In this document: in pieces, positions 9,982 through 64,000 of the stretch
Position numbering within the stretch: position 1 is the stretch's first letter
Layout of the letters: the number at the start of each line of letters is the position of its first letter
Made by a program: the position numbers and the translations under genes
DNA from: Pseudoxanthomonas sp. SE1
GTDB taxonomy: Bacteria > Pseudomonadota > Gammaproteobacteria > Xanthomonadales > Xanthomonadaceae
Length of the DNA: 64,000 nucleotides
NCBI RefSeq assembly: GCF_029542205.1
Contig: NZ_CP113783.1
Location: 3,401,001 to 3,465,000 of the forward strand
Direction: 5' to 3'
The notes under the pieces: generated by a model
Databases searched by the model: none
Told to the model about the DNA's origin: nothing
Seen by the model: the letters and a program-made list of their open reading frames with translations, nothing else

Positions 9982-10368
9982 TCACTGCTCGTACAGCTCC
10001 AGCGGCAGATCGTCCGGATCGGCGAAGAAGGTGAAGCGGCGACCCGTGTACTCGTCCACGCGGACCGGCTCGCATTCCACGCCATGCCTGTAAAGATGCG
10101 CGACGGCGACATCGAGGTCCGTGACGCGCAGGGCGAGGTGGCGAAGGCCACACGCTTCCGGACGCGACACCCGCGGCGGTGGCGAGGGAAAGGAGAACAG
10201 CTCGACCTGCGTGCCATCAGGCAGCGCGAGATCGAGCTTCCAGGAGTCACGTCCTGCACGATAGTGCTCGGCGACCACGCGTAGTCCGAGCACGTCGGCG
10301 TAGAAGCGCTTCGAGCGCGCGTAGTCCGACGCGATGATCGCAACGTGGTGCAGGCCTTCTATCTTCAT
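9982..10368 (-). CDS. VOC (glyoxalase/bleomycin-resistance fold) family protein
   Basis: 128-residue vicinal-oxygen-chelate protein. Metal-ligand positions fit the YaeR/GloA2-like group: His in LHHVAIIA at the start, Glu in QVELFSF, His in LRHLALRV and Glu in LPLELYE. Substrate unknown. A TACAAT element at 10375-10380 on the minus strand lies only 6 bp upstream of the ATG and there is no Shine-Dalgarno, so the mRNA may be leaderless. Confidence 0.8.
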   Translation of the reverse strand: MKIEGLHHVAIIASDYARSKRFYADVLGLRVVAEHYRAGRDSWKLDLALPDGTQVELFSFPSPPPRVSRPEACGLRHLALRVTDLDVAVAHLYRHGVECEPVRVDEYTGRRFTFFADPDDLPLELYEQ

Positions 10369-10423
10369 GCGGGCATTGTAGGCGCAGGTACCGCAGTCTC
10401 TGCAGGCGGGCCTGACCCGCCAT

Positions 10424-11980
10424 TCAATGCGCCGCAGCCGCGTCCGCACTGGCGTTTCCACCCGACGGCGCCCTGCCGCCACGCATCAACAGCACCAGCG
10501 GCATCGACACCAGCGTCAGCAGCATCATCAGCTTGAAGTCGTTGAGGTAGCCGATCGCCGCCGCCTGCCGGTTGACCTCGGCGTTGAGCAATGCGAGGCC
10601 GGTCGCCGTGGACGGATCCATCGCCGCGGGCAGCAGCGTCGTCTCCGCACCGAACGCGGGAATACGCGCACCGATCTCGGCATGGTTCACCTGCATCGCA
10701 CGCGACAGCATCGTCATCACCACCGAGATGCCGACCGACGAGCCGATGTTGCGCACCAGGCTGAAGAGGCCGGCGGCTTCGGTGCGCTGGTGCGGTTCCA
10801 GGGTTGCGTAGGCGACCGTCGAGATCGGCACGAACACCAGGCCCAGCCCCATGCCCTGCACCACGCCCAGCCAGACAATGGATTCCATCGACGCATTTGG
10901 CCCGAACTGGGTCATGCCGTGCAGCGAGAACACCATCAGCCCCATGCCGACCAGGATCGGCCAGCGCGCGTCGATGCGGCCCAGCAGGCGACCGACCACC
11001 ATCATGCTGAACATCGTGCCGACGCCACGTGGCGCCAGCACCAGGCCGATGGTCAGCACCGGGTAGTTCATCAGCGTGCTGAGGTACGGCGGAAGCAGCG
11101 CCAGCGTGGCGAACAGCACGATGCCCACGACGAAGATCAGCGCGCAGCCGACGGCGAAGTTGGCGTTCTTCAACAGGCCCAGGTCGAGCAGCGCGTGCTC
11201 GCGCTTGCGCCACCACCACAGGCCGTACATGTAGAGCGCGAGGAAGGCGAGCGCGGCTTCGATCTGGATCTCGACGCTGCCGAACCAATCCTCGCTCTGT
11301 CCACGATCGAGGAACAGCTGCAGCGCGCCAATGCCCAGCGCCAGCAGGCCCAGCCCGACACCGTCGAGCTTGCGCTCCTGCACCACGTCCTTCTTCACGC
11401 TGGCCATGATGCCGACCAGCGCGAGGATGCCGATCGGCAGGTTGATCAGGAACACCCAGTGCCAGCTGTAGTTCTGGGTCAGGAAGCCACCGAGGGGCGG
11501 ACCGAGGATGGGCCCGACCATGATGCCCATGCCCCACATCGCCATCGCGGCGCCGTGTTTTTCCTTCGGGAAGGCATCGAGCAGCAGCGACTGCGAAATC
11601 GGCACCAGCGACGCGCCGAACACGCCCTGCAGGATGCGGAACATCACCATCTCGCCAATGCCGCTGGCGATGCCGCACAGCAGCGAGGCGACGGTGAAGC
11701 CGCTGACCGCGATGATCAGCAGGCGACGGCGCCCGAGGCGGCCCGCCAGCCAGCCGGTGACCGGCGTGAGGATCGCAGCGGCGACGATGTAGCTGGTCAG
11801 CACCCACGACACCTGGTCCTGGGTAGCCGACAGCGAACCCTGCATGTCGGGCAGCGCGACGTTGGCGATAGTGGTGTCCAGCGCCTGCATCAGCGTGGCC
11901 AGCATCACCGAGCCGACCAGCAGCGTGCGCTTGCCGGTGTCGTCGTGCGCAGGTGCAGGGGAGACGGCAGTCGTGCTCAT
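10424..11980 (-). CDS. emrB: DHA2-family MFS multidrug efflux pump (EmrB-like)
   Basis: 518 residues with about 14 predicted membrane helices, as in the DHA2 (14-TMS) drug:H+ antiporters. DHA2 signatures present: LDTTIANVALP in helix 1, GRLGRRR in the first cytoplasmic loop and GPILGPPLGG (motif C of antiporters). Third gene of a MarR-EmrA-EmrB set; the pump is expected to work with the EmrA adaptor and a TolC-type outer membrane channel, which is not encoded in this window. 140 bp separates it from emrA. Confidence 0.9.
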   Translation of the reverse strand: MSTTAVSPAPAHDDTGKRTLLVGSVMLATLMQALDTTIANVALPDMQGSLSATQDQVSWVLTSYIVAAAILTPVTGWLAGRLGRRRLLIIAVSGFTVASLLCGIASGIGEMVMFRILQGVFGASLVPISQSLLLDAFPKEKHGAAMAMWGMGIMVGPILGPPLGGFLTQNYSWHWVFLINLPIGILALVGIMASVKKDVVQERKLDGVGLGLLALGIGALQLFLDRGQSEDWFGSVEIQIEAALAFLALYMYGLWWWRKREHALLDLGLLKNANFAVGCALIFVVGIVLFATLALLPPYLSTLMNYPVLTIGLVLAPRGVGTMFSMMVVGRLLGRIDARWPILVGMGLMVFSLHGMTQFGPNASMESIVWLGVVQGMGLGLVFVPISTVAYATLEPHQRTEAAGLFSLVRNIGSSVGISVVMTMLSRAMQVNHAEIGARIPAFGAETTLLPAAMDPSTATGLALLNAEVNRQAAAIGYLNDFKLMMLLTLVSMPLVLLMRGGRAPSGGNASADAAAAH

Positions 11981-54234: not shown

Positions 54235-56340
54235 CTACGCGGACGCGTACCGCGCTGCACCGCCCACCCAGCGATGGATCACGCGGTCCGCCACCACCGG
54301 TGCGTCGACGAGCAACTGCTCCGCCAGTGCGTGCACCTGCGGCAGCAGGCCGGCATCGCGCGCCAGGTCGGCGACGCGGAAGGCCGCCAGTCCCGTCTGC
54401 CGCGTGCCGAGCAGTTCGCCCGGGCCACGCAGTTCCAGATCCTTCTCGGCGATGACGAAACCGTCGTTGGTCTCGCGCATCGTCGCCAGGCGATGCTTGG
54501 CCATCATCGACAGCGGCGGCTGGTACATCAGCACGCAGGTCGACGCGGTGGCGCCACGGCCGACCCGCCCACGCAGCTGATGCAACTGCGCCAGGCCCAG
54601 CCGCTCCGCGTTCTCGATGATCATCAGCGAGGCATTGGGCACGTCCACGCCGACTTCGATCACCGTGGTCGCCACCAGCAGATCGACCTCACCCTGCTTG
54701 AAGCGGCGCATCGTGGCCTGCTTGTCTGCCGCCTTCATGCGTCCGTGCACCAGCGCGACGCGGGCTTCCGACAATGATGCGGAGAGGGCTTCGAACGTTG
54801 TCTGTGCCGCCTGTGCGACCACCTCGTCGCTGTCGTCGATCAGCGTGCAGACCCAGTACGCCTGCCGCCCTTCCGCACAGGCCGTGCGGATGCGTTCGAC
54901 CAGCTCCGGCCGTCGCTCCGCGCTCAGCGCGACGGTCTGCACCGGTGTGCGGCCCGGCGGCAGCTCGTCGATGGCCGATACATCCAGGTCCGCATAGGCC
55001 GCCATCGCCAGCGTGCGCGGAATCGGCGTGGCGGTCATGACCAACTGGTGCGGCACACGGTCGCTCCCTGCTCCCTTGTCGCGCAGCGCCAATCGCTGGT
55101 GCACGCCGAAGCGGTGCTGCTCGTCGACGATGGCCAGGCCGAGATCATGGAACGTCACCGCCTCCTGCATCAGCGCATGGGTGCCGACCACCACCTGCGC
55201 TTCGCCCGACGCCACCTGTGCCAGTACGGTCGCGCGGGCTTTGCCGGTGACCTTGCCGGCCAGCCACGCGACGCGCACGCCCAGGGGTTCGAGCCACGCG
55301 CGCAGGTTGACGAGGTGCTGCTCGGCCAGCAACTCGGTCGGGGCCGCCAGCGCCACCTGCTTGCCGGCTTCGACTGCCAGCATGCCCGCCAGCGCGGCCA
55401 CCACTGTCTTGCCGCTGCCGACGTCGCCCTGTACCAGCCGCAGCATCGGCGACGGCTTGGCGATGTCCTCGCGGATCTGCGCGAACACGCGTTGCTGCGC
55501 GCCCGTCAACGTGAACGGCAACGCCTTGACCAGCGCCTTCACCAGCGCGCCCTTTCCCTTCAGCGCGGGCGCGCGGTGCTGCTGCAAGGCCAGTCGTTGC
55601 CGACGCAGGCTCAGGTGATGGGCCAGCAGTTCTTCGATCGCCAGCCGGCGCTGCGCGGGGTGCGTGCCCAGTGCGAGTGCAGCGACATCCGCATCGCGCG
55701 GCGGACGATGCATGGTCAGCAGGGCCTGCCGCAGTGAAGGCAGGCCCAACCCGTCCAGCAGGGAGGCCGGCAGCAGTTCCAGGCGGTCATCGTCCGGCAG
55801 CCGCTCAAGCGCCTGGCCGACCAGCTTGCGGATGCTCGCAGGCCCCAGCCCCTCGATCGCGGGATAGACCGGATCCAGCGCCTCGCCCAGGGCCGCGTCG
55901 TCGTCTTCGCCCAATATGCGGTAGCTGGGATGGACGATCTCCAGGCCATGCTGCCCCGGCTTCGGCGTGCCGTAGCAGCGGATGCGCGCACCCACGGCGA
56001 ACTGCGCCACCTGCGCCGCGCGGAAATGGAAGAAACGCAACACCAGCGTGCCATGCGATTCGTCGCCCACGGCCACGCGTAGTACGGGCCGGTAGCGGAA
56101 GCCGCGCTCCACGGCCTCGACCCGACCTTCGACCTGCGCGGGCACGCCGGGCTGCAATTGCCTGATCGGCGTGAGCGCGGTGCGGTCTTCGTAGCGCAGC
56201 GGCAGGTGCAGCCACAGATCCTGCATGGTCAGCAGGCCGCGGGCGGCGAGCTTCTCCGCCACGCGCGGACCCACGCCCGGCAGGCGGCTCAACGGTTCGG
56301 CGGAAAGTTCGATGGGCGGCGTGTCGCGACGTGCAGGCAT
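54235..56340 (-). CDS. recG: ATP-dependent DNA helicase RecG
   Basis: Remodels stalled replication forks and Holliday junctions. 701 residues: wedge/OB domain at the N-terminus (about 50-150), helicase motif I GDVGSGKT, motif II DEQHRFG (the RecG form of DEAD), TATPIPRTL (motif III), ATTVIEVGVDVPNA and QLRGRVGRG (motifs V and VI). In related genomes recG commonly follows the rpoZ-spoT-ridA block; here the TonB/cytochrome cassette lies between. Confidence 0.95.
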   Translation of the reverse strand: MPARRDTPPIELSAEPLSRLPGVGPRVAEKLAARGLLTMQDLWLHLPLRYEDRTALTPIRQLQPGVPAQVEGRVEAVERGFRYRPVLRVAVGDESHGTLVLRFFHFRAAQVAQFAVGARIRCYGTPKPGQHGLEIVHPSYRILGEDDDAALGEALDPVYPAIEGLGPASIRKLVGQALERLPDDDRLELLPASLLDGLGLPSLRQALLTMHRPPRDADVAALALGTHPAQRRLAIEELLAHHLSLRRQRLALQQHRAPALKGKGALVKALVKALPFTLTGAQQRVFAQIREDIAKPSPMLRLVQGDVGSGKTVVAALAGMLAVEAGKQVALAAPTELLAEQHLVNLRAWLEPLGVRVAWLAGKVTGKARATVLAQVASGEAQVVVGTHALMQEAVTFHDLGLAIVDEQHRFGVHQRLALRDKGAGSDRVPHQLVMTATPIPRTLAMAAYADLDVSAIDELPPGRTPVQTVALSAERRPELVERIRTACAEGRQAYWVCTLIDDSDEVVAQAAQTTFEALSASLSEARVALVHGRMKAADKQATMRRFKQGEVDLLVATTVIEVGVDVPNASLMIIENAERLGLAQLHQLRGRVGRGATASTCVLMYQPPLSMMAKHRLATMRETNDGFVIAEKDLELRGPGELLGTRQTGLAAFRVADLARDAGLLPQVHALAEQLLVDAPVVADRVIHRWVGGAARYASA

Positions 56341-56375
56341 CGCACAAGGATGCCGGGAACGGCCCGAAACAAAAA

Positions 56376-56399
56376 CCCCGGCACCTCACGATGCCGGGG
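56376..56399 (-). terminator. Intrinsic terminator of the TonB-receptor operon
   Basis: On the minus strand CCCCGGCA-N8-TGCCGGGG followed at once by TTTTTGTTT: strong 8-bp stem and T-run, 27 bp after the receptor stop codon. It insulates the operon from recG, which starts 35 bp downstream. Confidence 0.92.
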
Positions 56400-56426
56400 C
56401 CCACGTCCAGCGCGTCTCCGCGCGGC

Positions 56427-58880
56427 TCAGAACTTCACGACCACTTCCATGCCGTAGGTGCGCGGCTCGCTGATGGTGGCGCCCACCACGCCCAGCGGTC
56501 CGCGCCCGTAGGTGTTCAGGCCTTTCACGTACTGGTTGTCGAACACGTTGTTGCCATAGATCGCCCAGCTCCAATGGCCGTTCGGCGCCGTCCAGCCGAT
56601 CCGCATGTCGGTGCGGTCGCGCGCCTCGCCGATGTCGAGCAGCGCGTTGACGCCGCAGTCGCCCTGCAGGTCCGACCCGGCATTGCAGCGGCTGCGCCCG
56701 CGGTAGGCATGGCGTGCGGAGAAGCGCAGATCGCCGTGACCGGCCAGGTCCACGCGATACGCCGCACCGATCGAGGCAGTGAACCGCGGCTCACCGGTCG
56801 GCTCGCCATCCAGATCGATGCCTTCCGGCGTCACGTAGTCCTTGTACTTGGAATCGATCCATTCGGCCTGCGCATCCAGCGAGAATGCATCCGTCACCTT
56901 CCAGCGCATGTCGAAGTCGATGCCGGTCGCCTCGAGGTCGCCGGTATCGAACACGAAGCGCGGGATGTCGACCGGGTTGTTCGGGTCGGGATCGATCAAT
57001 CGGATCGACTGGCGGTTGTCGTAGCGGTAGTGGAACAGCGACGCGTTGTAGGAGAAGCGACCGAAGGACTGCTTGATGCCTGCCTCCAGGTTCCATACGT
57101 CCTCGTTCTCGAACGCAGGCCCGATCTGCAGCGCATTGAAGCCACCGGCCTTGTAGCCCTTGGCCAGCGAACCGAACACCATCGTCCTGTCGTTGAGGTG
57201 GTAGTCCACGACGAAGCGCGGACTGACATCGCTCCAACTGCGCTTGTCGCGCACCAGCACGCCCTTGTTCACCATCGCCGGCGGATCGATGAAGGCCATG
57301 TCGAAGGTCAGCAGTTCACGCGTGATCGGGATCCCCATCTGCTCCAGCGCCGCGAAGAACCCGAGCGACTCCAGCAGGTCCAGCTTGCCTTCCAGTTCAG
57401 GCGCATTGCGCGGCGTGTTGAGCCAGGTGAAGTCCTTCTCGTCGCGCGTGTAACGCAGTCCGAAGGTCAGGTTGAGCTTGTCGGACGCGCGCCAGATCAC
57501 GTCACCGAAGGCCGCGTACGCGGTGGTCGACAAGGTATTGGTGAAACGCTCGTTCCAGCGGTCGCCCACCAGCGACACCGGGATACCCACGCTCTGCGCC
57601 AGGAACGAGGTGAATCCGAACAGGCTGCCATCCGGCGTCGGCGCGATGCCGAGGTTGCGCACGATGTTGTCCACCGCCTCGGTATTCGTGTTGACCTCGC
57701 TGGTCTGGTCGGCGTCCTCCTTGAAGAAGCTGGCACCGGCCACCCAGTCCAGGCGCGCGTTGCTGCCGGCGAACTTGAACTCCTGGTAGAACGTTTCGTT
57801 GCTTTCGGTATTCACCGAATCGATGTACAGGTCGGCCCGGTTGGTGCCGTCCTCCTCGGTCTGGTTCAGCGAATCGTACTGCCGCCACGACGAGGTCGAC
57901 GTCAGGTTGCCCCAGGTGAACGCGTGGTCGACGATCAGGGTGACGCCGTCGAACGTGCGCCACTCGGCGTTCTCCGCATCGCTGTAGGTCGGAACCTCGC
58001 GCGGATCGAAGTAGTCGTCCGGATCCACGGGCACCGGAGGGCGCTGCGGGTAGGCCGGCAACGGCACGATGCCGGTGGTCACCCGGCCGTTCTGGTCAAG
58101 GCTCTCGTGGTCCCAGCTGACCAGCGCGGTGGTGTTCTCGCCCATGCGGACCTGCCAGGCTGCGCGCGCCGCCCATACGTTCTCTCCCCCCAGGTCCTTG
58201 CCCGTCGCGCCATCCTGGAACCAGCCATCGCTGTGGTTGAACAGCGCGTTGACGCGCAACGCGGACGTCTCGCTGGTGGGAATGTTCCACATCGCATCGG
58301 CGTACTGCTTGCCGTAGTTCCCCAGTCGCAACCGCAGGCGCGCTTCGGTTTCGTCCTGCGGCCGGCGCGTCACCAGCGAGATCGCACCCGCTGCTGTGTT
58401 GCGGCCGAACAGCGTGCCTTGCGGGCCCTTCAGCACCTCGATGCGCTCGACGTCGAGGAACGGCAGCAGCACGCCACCGCCTCGGCCGCCGTACACGCCA
58501 TCCACGAATATCCCCACCGCCGGGTCGGTCCCGATGCCGAAGTCGCTGGTCTCCACGCCACGCAGCCGGAACGAAGGTTGCGTGGGCTGCACGGCATCCA
58601 CCACCAGGCCGGGCACGAAGGCGTCGATGTCGCCGAGGTTCTCGGCCGCCACGTCGTCGAGCAGTTGCTGATCCACCACCTGCAGCGCGATCGGCACGTC
58701 CTGGAGTTCCTGCGAACGGCTCTGCGCGGTCACGGTGATGGTGTCCAGATCGGTCGCCTGCTGCTCACCCTCGGGCGTGGCCTGCGCCCAGGCCGTGCCG
58801 CCCGTACCCAGCACCACGCAGCCGCCGAACAGCGCGCGACGCAGCCCCACGACCAGATTCCGTTGCATCACTTTCATCAC
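56427..58880 (-). CDS. TonB-dependent outer membrane receptor
   Basis: 817 residues: signal peptide (about 1-32), TonB box ITVTA at 48-52, plug domain (about 60-170, with SFRLRGVETSDFG and RIEVLKGPQGTLFGRNTAAGAI, shown in part) and a 22-strand barrel ending in Phe (MEVVVKF). The QELQDVPIALQV plug start is typical of the sphingomonad/Caulobacter type of receptor for organic nutrients rather than siderophores. Third gene of a minus-strand operon; 33 bp after the cytochrome gene. Substrate unknown. Confidence 0.88.
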   Translation of the reverse strand: MMKVMQRNLVVGLRRALFGGCVVLGTGGTAWAQATPEGEQQATDLDTITVTAQSRSQELQDVPIALQVVDQQLLDDVAAENLGDIDAFVPGLVVDAVQPTQPSFRLRGVETSDFGIGTDPAVGIFVDGVYGGRGGGVLLPFLDVERIEVLKGPQGTLFGRNTAAGAISLVTRRPQDETEARLRLRLGNYGKQYADAMWNIPTSETSALRVNALFNHSDGWFQDGATGKDLGGENVWAARAAWQVRMGENTTALVSWDHESLDQNGRVTTGIVPLPAYPQRPPVPVDPDDYFDPREVPTYSDAENAEWRTFDGVTLIVDHAFTWGNLTSTSSWRQYDSLNQTEEDGTNRADLYIDSVNTESNETFYQEFKFAGSNARLDWVAGASFFKEDADQTSEVNTNTEAVDNIVRNLGIAPTPDGSLFGFTSFLAQSVGIPVSLVGDRWNERFTNTLSTTAYAAFGDVIWRASDKLNLTFGLRYTRDEKDFTWLNTPRNAPELEGKLDLLESLGFFAALEQMGIPITRELLTFDMAFIDPPAMVNKGVLVRDKRSWSDVSPRFVVDYHLNDRTMVFGSLAKGYKAGGFNALQIGPAFENEDVWNLEAGIKQSFGRFSYNASLFHYRYDNRQSIRLIDPDPNNPVDIPRFVFDTGDLEATGIDFDMRWKVTDAFSLDAQAEWIDSKYKDYVTPEGIDLDGEPTGEPRFTASIGAAYRVDLAGHGDLRFSARHAYRGRSRCNAGSDLQGDCGVNALLDIGEARDRTDMRIGWTAPNGHWSWAIYGNNVFDNQYVKGLNTYGRGPLGVVGATISEPRTYGMEVVVKF

Positions 58881-58913
58881 TCCCTCCCGAGAAGCGTTGT
58901 GCGGATACCGGCT

Positions 58914-60089
58914 TCAGACGGCCGGCGGCGGTTGAATGTCTGTTTCATTCCCTGCATCGCAGCTTCCCGGCTGCGCATTGATCCACGCGCGGATCAGTTC
59001 GACACCCTCGCGATGGACGACCGACCGGCCCAGCTCGGGCATCATGATCGCGGGATCGTCGCTGTCCATGCGGAAATCGAAGATGGACGCCTCCGCGCTG
59101 CCCGGCACGATGTCGTGCAGCCGGTTGCCCGTGCCCTTGCCCGCGGCGATGGGCTGCTTGCAGAAACCCAGCTTCAGGCGGTCCTGCGTACCCGCATCCA
59201 GCCACAAGCCGGACGTGATGGCCGGACCGGTGGCGCTGTGGCAATGCCCGCAGTTGATGTCGAGGTAGGCACGCGCGCGCGCATCGAGGGATGCACGGGG
59301 ATCGGCCGCGTCTGCCAGCCGCGGCGGTTGCGCGGGTACGCCACTCAGATAGCCGACGCGCGCGAGGTGGGCCAACTGGTTGTCGCGACCGGCCGCATAC
59401 TCGAAGTCGCGATTGAGGTGGCGCGCCTTCAGCCCAATCGGCAGCAGTTTGCGCGACTTGTTGTCGGTGATGTGGCAGCCGCCGCACTGGTTCTGGTCGG
59501 GCACCTGGTAATTCGCGGCTTCACGGCCGCCATGCGCATCGACCAGGTCGAGCGTGACCAGTTCGCCGGTGCGCCTCAGTGTGGCTCCGGTCTGGGCGTC
59601 GTTCCATACGTAGGGAAGCGCGACCCAGCCTTCCGCACGGTGCACCAGCAGGCGCGTTTCGATCAGGCGGACCTTCGCCAGGTCCAGCGCTTCGCCTTCG
59701 AGCGAAGACGATGACGGCGGCGTGCGCGCGACCGATGCCCCATCCCATGCCTTGCCTGCGGGCAACGGGTAGTAGAACGTCTTGCTGAGGATCGTGCCCA
59801 CCGGGAAGTCGAAACTCCGGTCCGGCTGATACGTGGCTGCCATGCCCACCGGCATCCAGACGGTGCGCAGCTTGTGCGCGTAGTCGCTGAACAACGGCGT
59901 GTTGAGGTCGTAGGGCACCACGCCCTCATTGAGCCGCAACCAGCCGTCCTCGACCCGCAACACGCCCCACTCCGCCAGCGTTGCCGGCTGCCCTTCGGCA
60001 ATGAAATGCACACGGGATGCAGGCTGGCAGGCCACCAGCACCAGGCCCGCTGCCAGCAGCAGGAGGAACGCCGTGCACCGATGCCGCAT
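58914..60089 (-). CDS. Diheme c-type cytochrome lipoprotein (SO2930-like)
   Basis: 391 residues: signal peptide with lipobox LVAC (Cys21), a beta-rich N-terminal half with the ETRLLVHRAEGWVALPYVW block, and two heme sites, CGGCH (Cys202-His206) and CGHCH (Cys280-His284). A Met pair in DDPAIMMPELG could supply an axial ligand. The layout matches the SO2930 family described from Shewanella, which is paired with a beta-helix protein as here. Expected to be anchored in the envelope and to carry electrons. A Ser-rich insertion (PPSSSSLEGE, about 124-133) looks unconserved. Function unknown. Confidence 0.85.
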   Translation of the reverse strand: MRHRCTAFLLLLAAGLVLVACQPASRVHFIAEGQPATLAEWGVLRVEDGWLRLNEGVVPYDLNTPLFSDYAHKLRTVWMPVGMAATYQPDRSFDFPVGTILSKTFYYPLPAGKAWDGASVARTPPSSSSLEGEALDLAKVRLIETRLLVHRAEGWVALPYVWNDAQTGATLRRTGELVTLDLVDAHGGREAANYQVPDQNQCGGCHITDNKSRKLLPIGLKARHLNRDFEYAAGRDNQLAHLARVGYLSGVPAQPPRLADAADPRASLDARARAYLDINCGHCHSATGPAITSGLWLDAGTQDRLKLGFCKQPIAAGKGTGNRLHDIVPGSAEASIFDFRMDSDDPAIMMPELGRSVVHREGVELIRAWINAQPGSCDAGNETDIQPPPAV

Positions 60090-60098
60090 GCGTCGTCC

Positions 60099-61334
60099 TC
60101 AACCGCGCTTCAGATCGACCGCCGGCAGGCGCGGCAGTTCGCAATCGTGCGACTTCATGTCCTTGCCGGGGCTCTTGTAGCCCCCGGGCCCGTCGGCATT
60201 GACCACGCCGCTGACATCGCGCAGGCAGATCTGCGGGCCGATCTTCCTGCCGTCCACCAGGCGATCCTTGTTGAAGTAGCCGTCCCAGAGCACGTCGGGA
60301 AAGCTGCCGCGCAGGCCGTAGACCGCCACCTTCAGCGCCTTCAGGTCGAAGCCGTCGGGCGAATCCCCGCCGCCGGACAGGGTGTTGCCATGGATGAAGA
60401 TGCGCTCGGGGTAAGGATCGAAGTTCGGCGAGGCGCTGCTGTCCTTGTACCCCGTGGAGTACACGCTGGACACGATGATGTTGGCCGTCGCGTTGTCGCG
60501 GATCTCGTTGGCGAAGACCTCGATGTCGTCGTTGGAGTTGATGACGATGCCCGAGCCCGCCGGCACGCTGGCCACAGGCGTGCCCTTGGCGCCGAAGTTC
60601 TCGTGGTTGTTGGCGATCACCTTGTTGTTGTAAACGCGGATGTTGCCGCCCTGCTGTGACAGGCCGGGCATGTTGAATACCAGGATGCCGCCGGTGTTGC
60701 CGGTGGCCACGTTCTCGTAGACGTCCGCGTTGATCGTGTTCTCGACCTCGATGCCGGCGACATTCTGTTCGGCGCGGCTGCGGCGCACGATCACCCCGTC
60801 GGACTGGCCCACGTAGATCCCCGCATCGGACGCGCCGATGGACACCGTGTCCTCGATCAGCACGTTCTTCGTCAGCACCGGATAGATGCCGTAGGCACCG
60901 TTCTTCGTGCTCGGGCCACCGGTCCATTGCACTTTCACGCCCCGGATGGTGATGTTCGACGACTCGCTGATCTTGAGGCCGTCGCCCTTGGAATCCTCGA
61001 TGGTGAGGTTCTCGATGGTGAAGTCGTTGCCGTTCACCAGCAGGCCTTCCGCGCCCGCCTTCTGCCCCTTGAAGCTCAGCACGCTCTTGTCCATGCCGGC
61101 GCCCCGGATCGTCACACCGTCGGCACGCAGGCTGAGGCTGCGGTCGAAGCTGTGGCGGCCGGCCGGGATCTCGATGACATCGCCCGGCTTGGCGTCCAGC
61201 AGGCGCTCCTGCAGGGTGGCGGCGAAACCTGCATCGGCGGCCGCGACGGTATCGGTCGCGGGTGTCCCTGGCTGGCAGCCCGCCGCCAGCAACGCCAATG
61301 CGCCGGCCATCGCCAAGGAAATGTTGCGTTGCAT
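60099..61334 (-). CDS. Parallel beta-helix lipoprotein (partner of SO2930-type cytochromes)
   Basis: 411 residues with lipobox AAGC (Cys20). From about residue 45 it shows repeated short strands of the right-handed beta-helix: GDVIEIPAGRHSF, FTIENLTIEDSKGDGLKI, GIYVGQSDGVIVRRSRAEQN (each shown in part), a pattern also found in pectate lyases and other carbohydrate- or surface-acting proteins. No lyase catalytic set identified. ATG at 61334 gives the lipoprotein signal; upstream frame is not signal-like. First gene of the operon, 9 bp before the cytochrome gene. Confidence 0.85.
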   Translation of the reverse strand: MQRNISLAMAGALALLAAGCQPGTPATDTVAAADAGFAATLQERLLDAKPGDVIEIPAGRHSFDRSLSLRADGVTIRGAGMDKSVLSFKGQKAGAEGLLVNGNDFTIENLTIEDSKGDGLKISESSNITIRGVKVQWTGGPSTKNGAYGIYPVLTKNVLIEDTVSIGASDAGIYVGQSDGVIVRRSRAEQNVAGIEVENTINADVYENVATGNTGGILVFNMPGLSQQGGNIRVYNNKVIANNHENFGAKGTPVASVPAGSGIVINSNDDIEVFANEIRDNATANIIVSSVYSTGYKDSSASPNFDPYPERIFIHGNTLSGGGDSPDGFDLKALKVAVYGLRGSFPDVLWDGYFNKDRLVDGRKIGPQICLRDVSGVVNADGPGGYKSPGKDMKSHDCELPRLPAVDLKRG

Positions 61335-61390
61335 GAGTCTCCCCTCCCATACGCCTGCGTAGTGCAGGCCAGTCTGGTGGGCGGGCATGT

Positions 61391-61418
61391 GTGACACGGA
61401 GGGCGGGAGCGGCATACT
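61391..61418 (+). promoter_or_regulatory. Candidate promoter of the AraC-type regulator
   Basis: GTGACA (61391-61396), 16-bp spacer, CATACT (61413-61418); five and four matches to sigma70 boxes. It lies in the 119-bp divergent region between the regulator and the beta-helix operon, so the regulator could act on both. Confidence 0.4.
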
Positions 61419-61453
61419 AAGGGGGGGAAAGCGGACAAGCTGGAGGGGCTTCG

Positions 61454-62491
61454 ATGCGCTGGAAAACCGGACTGGGCAATCCCCTGTCGATCGCCAATCT
61501 GCCTACCAACATGCTCTGCGGGCTGGTGCTGCTTGCCGGCGAATTCGGCGTGAATGCCGAGAGCTGGTTCGCGGGCATGCGCCTGAACGTGCAGGAGATC
61601 CACGACCCGCAGGCCCGCGTGTCCTACCGCCAGGCCAGCGAGATCATCCGCCGCGCCCTGCCCACCTTGCCCATCGATGGCGTCGGCCTGGCCATGGGCG
61701 GAAAGCAGAACGGCGGCAACTTCGGCCTGCTCGGGCTGGCGATGAAGACGGCGCCCACGTTCGGCGATGCGGTGCAGATCGGCCTCGAATACCAGCGCAA
61801 CCTGGGGCCGCTGATGGACCTGGAACTGGAGGATCGCGATGAAGGCGCGTTGGCCGTGATCGCGACGGCGCCGGAGGAGGCCAACGACCTGCTGCCGTTC
61901 CTTTGCGAGGAAATGTTCGCCAGCACGCTGATGCTGGCGCGCGAACTGGCGGGCCCGGAATTCCGCCCGCTACGGCTGGAACTCGGCTATCCCGCACCCC
62001 GCTACGCTGCCCGCTACGACGACCTGTTCGGTTGCGAAGTCCGTTTCAACCAGCCGCGGCACGCCATGGTGGTGGACCGTCGCTGGCTGGAACTGCCGTT
62101 CGCCAGCTACAACCCGGTGACGTCACGGCAGGCGCTCGCGTTGTGCCAGGCACAGCTGACGGCGATGTCGTTGCGTGGCGAGACCACCGCGGCGGTGGAG
62201 CGGCAGTTGCGCCCGCGCCTGCGCGAGAACCCGCAGATGACCGACGTGGCCACCGCACTGCACCTCAGTGAGCGCACGCTGCGCCGCCAGCTCGCCGAGG
62301 AAGGCACCAGCTTCAGCGCAGTGCACGACCGCGTGCGCACGGAACGCGCGCTGGAGCTGTTGCACGACGAAGAAACGACCATTGCCACCGTCGGCAGCCA
62401 GATAGGCTTCAACGACGTGCGTGAATTCCGCCGCGCGTTCAAGCGCTGGACCGGGCACACGCCCAGCGACACGCGACGACGCCCCACGTAG
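61454..62491 (+). CDS. AraC-family regulator with arabinose-binding-like N-domain
   Basis: 345 residues: an N-terminal domain of the Arabinose_bd type (about 15-210) and a C-terminal double helix-turn-helix (about 245-340) with DVATALHLSERTLRRQL and the signature ending FNDVREFRRAFKRWTGHTPS (shown in part). Regulators of this subclass (OruR-like) control catabolism of amino acids, lipids or aromatics. Divergent from the beta-helix/cytochrome/receptor operon, 119 bp away, and so its likely activator. Its TAG stop codon is the GTAG head of a REP element. Confidence 0.88.
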   Translation: MRWKTGLGNPLSIANLPTNMLCGLVLLAGEFGVNAESWFAGMRLNVQEIHDPQARVSYRQASEIIRRALPTLPIDGVGLAMGGKQNGGNFGLLGLAMKTAPTFGDAVQIGLEYQRNLGPLMDLELEDRDEGALAVIATAPEEANDLLPFLCEEMFASTLMLARELAGPEFRPLRLELGYPAPRYAARYDDLFGCEVRFNQPRHAMVVDRRWLELPFASYNPVTSRQALALCQAQLTAMSLRGETTAAVERQLRPRLRENPQMTDVATALHLSERTLRRQLAEEGTSFSAVHDRVRTERALELLHDEETTIATVGSQIGFNDVREFRRAFKRWTGHTPSDTRRRPT

Positions 62492-62583: not shown

Positions 62584-62967
62584 TCACTCCAGCACCATCA
62601 CCGCATCGACTTCGAAAGCGGCGCCCTTCGGCAGGCCGGAGACTTCGATCGTCGAACGTGCGGGGTAAGGCGCGGCGAAATATTCCTGCATTACCGCATT
62701 GACCGCCGCGAACTGCGACAGGTCGGTCAGGTACAGACCCAGGCGCACGATGCGGTCCAGCGAGCCGCCCGCCGCTTCGGCGACGGCCTTGAGGTTGTCG
62801 AAAGCACGGCGGGCCTGCGCGCCGATGTCGCCTTCCACCAGATTGCCGGTGGCCGGATCCAGCGGGATCTGCCCCGAGAAGTACACGGTATTGCCCGCGC
62901 GCACGGCCTGCGAATACGGACCGATGGCGGCCGGCGCCTGGTCGGTTTGGATGATCTGTTTGGTCAT
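62584..62967 (-). CDS. ridA: Enamine/imine deaminase RidA
   Basis: 127-residue YjgF/YER057c/UK114 protein that hydrolyses reactive enamines/imines made by PLP enzymes. Conserved [17 protein letters not shown], the Arg in PARSTIEV and Glu in FEVDAV are present. It follows spoT on the same strand, as in the common spoT-ridA arrangement, but the two are separated by a 133-bp REP pair. Confidence 0.93.
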
Positions 62968-62996: not shown

Positions 62997-63129
62997 ACGT
63001 AGGGCGGGCCCAGGCCCGCCATCGCGCGCGACCCGATCACCTTCGCATTGATGGAAACAGGCAACCCAAGCGGATCGCCGCCATTGCGAACATGGGCGCC
63101 ACGACGGCGGGCCTGGGCCCGCCCTACGT
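62997..63129. repeat. REP pair (REPIN), GGGCGGGCCCAGGCCCGCC-type
   Basis: Perfect 24-bp inverted arms (62997-63020 and 63106-63129), each with a GTAG head and its own GGCGGGCC-N2-GGCCCGCC hairpin; spacer 85 bp. The right arm ends on the first base of the spoT stop codon. Its stem differs from the other REP families in the window. Confidence 0.9.
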
Positions 63130-64000
63130 CACTGCCGGCGCACGCCGTGCACGACGTTGAGGCGCCGCAGCCGTCGCATCACTTCCGCCAGGTGGTTGCG
63201 GTCGCGTACCTGGATCGAGAAGCGCAGCACGGCGACGTTGATGTCGCGCTCCAGGTATTCGACCCGCTCGATGTTGGACTGGCTCTTCGCGACCGCCGCC
63301 GCGACCTGCGCCAGCACGCCGGGGCGATTCTCCACGTCGATCAGCAGGGCGGCGTCGTAGTCGCCGGTGACCCGTGCGTCCCAGGCGATCGGCACCCAGC
63401 GCTCGGGCGATTTGCGGAATTCGGTAACGTTGGGACAATCCAGCCGATGTACCACGATGCCCTTGCCGGCCGTGTGGTAACCCATGATCTCGTCGCCCGG
63501 GATGGGCTGGCAGCACTGCGCGAAGCTGACCACGCCGCGCTCGCCACCGGTGATCAGGATCTTCTCCTGCGAGTGCTTGGAGTGGCCGCCGGCACGCAGT
63601 TCGGCGAACGCGGTCAGCGCCTGCGCCGCCTGTGCCGGCATCCAGTTGCCCAGCGCCACGTCCGCCAGGAAGGCTTCCAGGCGCGGATACTTGTGCTCGG
63701 TGAGGAAGGCCTCCAGACGCTGCTGCGGCAGCCGCTCGAGCGAACTGTCCAGGTCCTCCAGCGCACGGTCCAGCATGCGGTGGCCCAGTTGTACGGCATC
63801 CTCGTGCTCCAGTTGCTTGAGCTGGTGCCGGATCGCGGTACGCGCCTTGCTGGTGACCACGAACTCCAGCCACTGCGGCTTGGGCGCGGCCGACTTGGCG
63901 GTGATGATCTCCACGCTCTGCCCGCTGGCGAGCTTGGTGCGCAGCGGCACCAGCTTCTTGTCCACGCGCGAGGCCACGGCCTGGTTGCCCACGTCCGTGT
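63129..64000 (-). CDS. spoT: Bifunctional (p)ppGpp synthetase/hydrolase SpoT, 3' part
   Basis: C-terminal 290 residues; the gene continues beyond the right edge, so the catalytic hydrolase and synthetase domains are not in view. Visible are the end of the TGS domain (DVGNQAVASRVDKK, PLRTKLASGQSVEI), the helical domain, the conserved cysteine pair FAQCCQPIPGD of the zinc-finger/RIS region, and a C-terminal ACT domain (about the last 80 residues, VENRPGVLAQV). Orientation and ridA downstream fit the rpoZ-spoT-ridA block of gammaproteobacteria; SpoT rather than RelA is inferred from this context. Confidence 0.93.
   Translation of the reverse strand, partial: TDVGNQAVASRVDKKLVPLRTKLASGQSVEIITAKSAAPKPQWLEFVVTSKARTAIRHQLKQLEHEDAVQLGHRMLDRALEDLDSSLERLPQQRLEAFLTEHKYPRLEAFLADVALGNWMPAQAAQALTAFAELRAGGHSKHSQEKILITGGERGVVSFAQCCQPIPGDEIMGYHTAGKGIVVHRLDCPNVTEFRKSPERWVPIAWDARVTGDYDAALLIDVENRPGVLAQVAAAVAKSQSNIERVEYLERDINVAVLRFSIQVRDRNHLAEVMRRLRRLNVVHGVRRQ

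Follow-up and report, generated by a model that had tools for sequence, protein, structure and literature searches.

What is the function of the four genes that separate ridA from recG on the chromosome of Pseudoxanthomonas sp. SE1? The genes lie in a 64,000-nucleotide stretch (NZ_CP113783.1, positions 3,401,001 to 3,465,000) of a complete 4.23-Mb genome; this stretch is called the window here, and coordinates follow its numbering from 1 to 64,000. They encode a parallel beta-helix lipoprotein, a diheme c-type cytochrome lipoprotein, a TonB-dependent receptor, and an AraC-family regulator, and no other genes are called between ridA and recG. A preliminary description had read them as an inserted uptake system with an electron carrier. 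We find that the cytochrome's first heme domain is P460/c'-beta-like, though divergent, and that the four genes travel together as one conserved, locally regulated unit. With about an even chance, in our estimate, the products would form a redox enzyme complex at the outer membrane, linked to uptake through TonB and under a local AraC switch.

The cytochrome was assigned to TIGR03806 ("SO2930 family diheme c-type cytochrome") at 378 bits against a cutoff of 313.3. The two CxxCH sites noted earlier, C202-H206 and C280-H284, are invariant in 133 of 133 aligned cytochromes. Lys103, at the position of the P460 cross-linking lysine, is likewise invariant in all 133, the cross-link itself being putative, and Met350 in the C-terminal cytochrome c-like domain is also invariant. 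When the cytochrome was compared with P460 by hhalign, the score was 41.6, against a maximum of 21.9 in 100 shuffles, 14.0 for the reversed P460 profile, and at most 18.3 for five unrelated profiles. The gathering score of Pfam PF16694 (Cytochrome P460) was not reached: the window protein was unlisted, and the best relative scored 20.6 versus 27 bits. The AF2 model of the cytochrome had a pLDDT of 90.9; a Foldseek search against pdb returned nothing for this protein, and a PDB sequence search returned nothing useful for it or for the beta-helix protein. The alignments comprised A1, with 71 rows (7 of 34 reduced locus rows were omitted for their long N-extensions, as were 10 of the 27 reduced P rows and 8 of the 34 reduced fused rows); A2, with 41 of 120 listed fused proteins; A3, with the window and 30 of the 34 loci printed; and A4, with 18 of 24 P460 loci. 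Profile and sequence evidence, together with an apparent similarity of fold, mark the first heme domain as P460/c'-beta-like, previously unrecognised in the SO2930 family. It is followed by a cytochrome c-type heme site. The first domain is likely to be ligand binding or catalytic, and the label "electron carrier" is probably too weak. An ordinary cytochrome P460 with a single heme is encoded in this genome as well (L273, G000:C1:651204-651575; 133 bits).

The beta-helix protein scored 427 bits with TIGR03805 (cutoff, 141.5). By eye, both it and the window cytochrome have lipoprotein signal peptides, and across the loci, with start sites as called, 93 of the 132 cytochromes and 108 of the 132 beta-helix proteins show a lipobox pattern within their first 100 residues. 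At three loci outside the family (L083, L084, and L102), the two proteins are joined in one reading frame of 881 to 909 amino acids. Among 120 of 1,879 listed relatives, long relatives of this fusion were found in Shewanella, Ferrimonas, Paraferrimonas, Endozoicomonas, Vibrio hangzhouensis, Pelagibaculum, and Halioglobus. Since they are fused in several genera, the beta-helix protein and the cytochrome very likely act as one complex. The fold of the fused homologue is closest to that of AlgE-type epimerases/lyases. The beta-helix family has an invariant YG-x-YPV motif where the AlgE catalytic motif is YG-x-DPH; this is a comparison of motifs rather than a residue alignment. The protein is AlgE-epimerase-like, with its catalytic motif apparently replaced. 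A polysaccharide-processing system, with the beta-helix protein as an active epimerase or lyase and the cytochrome as its oxidative partner, is in our judgment very unlikely.

The pair was searched for with TIGR03806 and TIGR03805, at curated cutoffs, in a family sample of 149 genomes. Each profile exceeded its cutoff in 33 genomes; these were the same 33, and the two genes were adjacent in every one. All 6 sampled genomes of the window's genus carry the pair, and four further family genomes gave a weaker TIGR03806 match (160 to 183 bits) with TIGR03805 not over its cutoff. In 20-kb stretches, the window included, the receptor and the regulator accompany the pair in 33 of 33 carriers. A first set of such stretches contained all four genes in 20 of 20 cases, 18 of them between ridA and recG, and in a second set of twelve the full cassette lay between ridA and recG in every case. 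The named Lysobacterales loci are close relatives only, since they are the best 80 of 455 confirmed matches; within stretches of up to 10 kb on each side, the pair was present in 80 of 80, the receptor in 78, and the regulator in 75. A contig end accounts for the missing gene at L108, L157, and L158. In full stretches, the AraC gene is absent at L136, L139, and L171 and the TonB gene at L155. The AraC gene is on the operon strand, without a RidA, RecG, or SpoT match, in 37 of the 80 loci. The link is looser in some Dyella loci, where the TonB gene (L160, L178, and L179) or the AraC gene (e.g., L153 and L179) is several kilobases away. Two Pseudoxanthomonas loci (L103 and L104) encode cassette proteins 95 to 100% identical to those of the window. 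In five others (L112, L116, L117, L120, and L122), the cytochrome and beta-helix protein are 68 to 86% identical to the window's and the receptor is 49 to 51% identical; there the cassette seems to have exchanged its receptor for another.

In wider samples the pair is uncommon: TIGR03805 was found in 5 of 274 genomes of a broad class sample, and TIGR03806 exceeded its cutoff in 37 of 398 genomes of a phylum sample. Twenty loci outside the family were scanned with profiles of the cassette proteins. TonB matches were found at L086, L087 (weak, 47.6 bits), L093, L098, and L099, AraC matches at L083, L084, L093, and L102 (111 bits), and a FadL match at L102; the other 12 loci gave no TonB, AraC, or FadL match with these profiles. 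A different TonB-barrel gene lies beside the cytochrome at L097. Receptor and regulator thus recur at some pair loci outside Lysobacterales, but neither is obligatory.

In the window, the three genes are read on the minus strand from 61334 to 56427 in the order beta-helix protein, cytochrome, and receptor (Table 1). The ORF coordinates bear out the operon as it was first described, with gaps of 9 bp (beta-helix/cytochrome) and 33 bp (cytochrome/receptor), and the strong terminator claimed for it corresponds to a hairpin just beyond the receptor gene, with a 13-pair stem and a TTGTTT tail. Terminator-like hairpins in the region as a whole showed no excess over chance (3 found versus 3.7 in shuffles). 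The beta-helix start (MQRN at 61334) was picked by eye, with a purine-rich stretch before it; the ORF list begins at 61415. The regulator starts 119 bp away on the opposite strand. It is divergent and of the AraC family, as proposed, with PF12625 (Arabinose_bd) at 145 bits and HTH_18 at 75 bits. The "OruR-like" subclass was not confirmed, as the closest NCBIfam equivalogs were QhpR (139 bits), GliR (127 bits), and CypR (114 bits), all under their cutoffs.

Table 1. Features of the ridA-recG region (window coordinates)
Feature	Position	Strand	Remarks
recG	54235..56340	-	ORF; flank of site
Terminator-like hairpin	56373..56402	-	13-pair stem, loop 4, T-rich tail TTGTTT; between TonB gene and recG
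TonB-dependent receptor, third gene, 816 aa	56427..58877	-	Plug + barrel; alternative GTG start at 58880
SO2930-family diheme c-type cytochrome lipoprotein, second gene, 391 aa	58914..60089	-	TIGR03806
P460/c'-beta-like heme domain of cytochrome, residues ~32-245	59355..59996	-	
Lys103 codon of cytochrome	59781..59783	-	Place of P460 heme cross-linking Lys
First heme site, C202-G-G-C-H206	59472..59486	-	P460-type position
Second heme site, C280-G-H-C-H284	59238..59252	-	C-terminal cytochrome c-like domain
TIGR03805 parallel beta-helix lipoprotein, first gene, 411 aa	60099..61334	-	427 bits
Operator-like box (putative), TTGTCCGCTTTCCCCCCC	61421..61438	-	Upstream of operon
AraC-family regulator, divergent	61454..62491	+	PF12625 + HTH_18
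ridA	62584..62967	-	ORF; flank of site
spoT end	63129..63992	-	ORF

Upstream of the beta-helix gene, the box TG[GT]CCGnTTTnCCC[CT]CC, with one mismatch allowed, was found in 50 of 62 regions (L063-L082, L093, L103-L130, L188-L199, and the window) and in 46 of 52 regions of L131-L182, but in none of 570 dinucleotide-shuffled regions. Some genomes entered these counts twice; with repeats removed, the box was present in 51 of 63 regions whose AraC gene is on the opposite strand, in 36 of 39 where it shares the strand of the operon, and in 4 of 5 that lack it, counts that are not probabilities because the regions are related by descent. The box is thus kept although the AraC orientation flips. The sole exact match of TTGTCCGCTTTNCCCCCC in the whole genome is the window box; the next-best site differs at 2 positions, and eleven more differ at 3. 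The 2-mismatch site (L295) was not taken as a second target, as it lies inside long reading frames. By eye, a similar GCCCT half follows about 16 nt after the box, and AraC operators often consist of two half-sites. The shared box appears to tie the regulator to the operon as a putative, operator-like element. With the co-occurrence counts, and with cassettes that keep the receptor and regulator at other chromosomal sites too, it supports the earlier idea that the genes form one system.

The cassette occupies the ridA-recG site in 31 of 33 family carriers and lies elsewhere in the chromosome in G008 and G010. The ridA-recG distance was taken in 143 of the 149 genomes, excluding G014, G030, and G084 (RidA only), G007 and G023 (neither), and G101 (recG broken). 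It is at most 200 bp in 109 of 111 noncarriers, the exceptions being 375 bp (with a partial ridA match) and 6.1 kb (with antiporter-like genes, read by eye). In carriers it is 6.2 to 6.9 kb in 30 of 32, with 64 bp in G010 and 1.8 kb in G008. The site has accepted other inserts: in G054 (L183:2824-8166) the gap is filled by genes that read like a multisubunit Na+/H+ antiporter. In G008 (L185:2453-3877), whose cassette is elsewhere, a lone aldehyde dehydrogenase lies between ridA and recG. In G101 (L194:1273-5977), recG and the TonB gene are both frame broken, possibly through an assembly error. On a RecG tree of 32 carriers and 58 of the 116 noncarriers, the carriers are scattered, requiring at least 11 changes, and 0 of 500 shuffles gave as low a number. 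Cassette distances track RecG moderately (Mantel r, 0.36 to 0.47), and the cytochrome and beta-helix distances correlate at r = 0.88. A recent mobile island was rejected, because the site is common to 31 of 33 carriers and only the four genes lie between ridA and recG in the window. The insertion claim survives in an older sense, in view of the tight ridA-recG joint of noncarriers: the block is normally closed, and the cassette either entered it long ago or is ancestral and has been lost many times, a choice that the tree data do not settle. An ancient cassette that was repeatedly lost and sometimes exchanged may account for the pattern.

The receptor carries Plug (PF07715, 64 bits) and barrel (PF00593, 108 bits) domains. 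Generic profiles place it nearest siderophore receptors: it scored 145 bits with TIGR01783, and its best PDB match was "Pesticin receptor" (E, 3.6e-14; residues 38 to 231), followed by ferripyoverdine receptors. Such matches are what reductive iron or siderophore uptake would predict, with the receptor importing a chelate and the diheme cytochrome reducing or releasing the metal. However, the TIGR01783 score is under the cutoff of 223.5, the structural match falls mostly in the plug, and local AraC/PF12625 control and an aldehyde dehydrogenase partner point elsewhere; we consider this explanation unlikely.

The aldehyde dehydrogenase belongs to one cluster found in 39 of the 80 named loci, whose single scanned representative is PF00171; MdlD was its top-scoring match, yet all scores were under cutoff. 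Its gene directly follows the TonB gene in 10 of 11 printed Rhodanobacteraceae loci and in two Stenotrophomonas loci (L163 and L177). This arrangement is consistent with uptake and oxidation of a hydrophobic compound (lipid, alkane, or aromatic) that yields an aldehyde, as are a FadL/TodX-type cluster (one representative scanned) near 29 of the 80 loci, a FadL-like gene that precedes the fused gene by 27 bp at L102, and a Lipase_bact_N protein encoded some 4 kb away from the Shewanella-type fusion. For the organic-ligand uptake proposed earlier, the aldehyde dehydrogenase and FadL neighbours in relatives would be indirect support. In the passages available, a TonB receptor and FadL are described as raised on long-chain alkane in Thalassolituus (PMC6304351). 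Against such a substrate, the aldehyde dehydrogenase family is widespread (122 of 149 family genomes) and is not at the window locus, and the FadL gene is on the other strand in Rhodanobacteraceae (L135), where it may be plain synteny. Twenty scanned neighbours in outside loci were mostly unrelated genes, and 30 neighbours in outside or relocated loci scanned by Pfam included no consistent enzyme that would point to a substrate. We regard a hydrophobic substrate as rather improbable.

Surface defence against nitrogen oxide, hydroxylamine, or peroxide seems about equally doubtful. Here the P460/c'-beta-type heme would bind or turn over NO, NH2OH, or peroxide, and the TonB linkage in Lysobacterales would be secondary. 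According to passages of a 2025 review, NH2OH is oxidised by P460, and a role in gas binding has been proposed for c'-beta (PMC11928373). At L102 (11397-14441), the fusion adjoins norR (735 bits; cutoff, 476) and an NO-inducible flavohemoprotein gene (560 bits; cutoff, 432). This neighbourhood was seen at one locus only, the neighbours of the other outside loci having been scanned in part, and three other scanned sigma-54 activators score highest on NtrC, not NorR. Moreover, a TonB receptor, a PF12625 AraC regulator, and an aldehyde dehydrogenase would be unexpected for a detoxifier.

Surface oxidation coupled to uptake, the mechanism we place at even chances, would proceed as follows. The beta-helix protein and cytochrome would form one lipid-anchored complex, in which the AlgE-like beta-helix would hold or present the substrate. 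The P460-type heme would have an open site, might be cross-linked to Lys103, and would oxidise an N-O, peroxide-type, or other small or organic substrate; N-O, peroxide, and aldehyde chemistry are the candidates. The second heme would exchange electrons with the periplasmic cytochrome pool, the receptor would import the substrate or product, and the AraC regulator would sense it. In relatives, the aldehyde dehydrogenase would handle a product. The likelihoods given to this reading and to the alternatives overlap, as the latter are partly choices of substrate within the same frame. A wider proposal is possible but more tentative: the SO2930 family may be an unrecognised diheme P460 branch of Lys-cross-linked heme oxidases, anchored at the surface or in the outer membrane, mounted on (and often fused to) an inactive AlgE-like, substrate-presenting beta-helix, and wired through the second heme; in Lysobacterales these would work with TonB import and have an AraC switch of their own. 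If true, this would be a new way of carrying out oxidative chemistry at the outer membrane before uptake. The P460 fold and the beta-helix partner, joined in Lysobacterales by a receptor and regulator, give the SO2930 family a first concrete mechanism with testable parts (heme-Lys cross-link, ligand binding, and inducer).

Several known systems resemble parts of this cassette. For OmpS/TOL_0244, available passages propose that a hydrophobic substrate is served by a TonB receptor together with FadL (PMC6304351); in contrast to alkane uptake of that kind, the window's four genes include no hydroxylase, and its receptor is not a member of the TOL_0244-type family NF053590, because it scored 65.4 bits against a cutoff of 645. 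Unlike AlgE-type mannuronan C5-epimerases/alginate lyases, the window beta-helix protein has a heme protein as its partner. The Shewanella-type locus L083 shares the pair as a fusion, followed by a second SO2930-like cytochrome (10318-11565), and its AraC gene scores 319 bits with the AraC profile built from the cassette. It differs in that the window has separate genes plus a receptor, and a profile search found no cassette-type TonB receptor in the 20-kb stretch of L083. The Shewanella cytochromes SO_2930 and SO_2931 belong by name to TIGR03806, as does the window cytochrome; from the Shewanella-type gene order, SO_2931 would be the second family copy. In the passages found, SO_2931 is named as an outer-membrane cytochrome (PMC5357785, PMC12175506, PMC10986466, PMC5829830), once described as a diheme lipoprotein (PMC5357785), and filed under Fe/Mn-oxide reduction (PMC5955497). 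It thus ranks among the outer-membrane cytochromes of Shewanella oneidensis, and those passages give neither its own role nor a functional test of SO_2931 alone. For the cytochrome/beta-helix pair, the open-licence literature yielded only listings or mentions of SO_2930/SO_2931 and no functional study. The main text of the 2025 review of the P460/c'-beta superfamily uses none of the words diheme, fused, or Shewanella (PMC11928373). With that superfamily (PF16694), the window domain shares, apparently, the N-terminal beta domain fold, and also an F-P-x-G-T-x-x-x-K motif followed by CxxCH, and the position of the cross-linking lysine. It differs in falling under the Pfam cutoff and in its length of about 210 residues versus a 125-position profile, and the whole protein differs in having a second heme site and in being a lipoprotein. 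Linking the SO2930 family to this superfamily would take P460-type chemistry beyond single-heme proteins, into an enzyme of the outer membrane.

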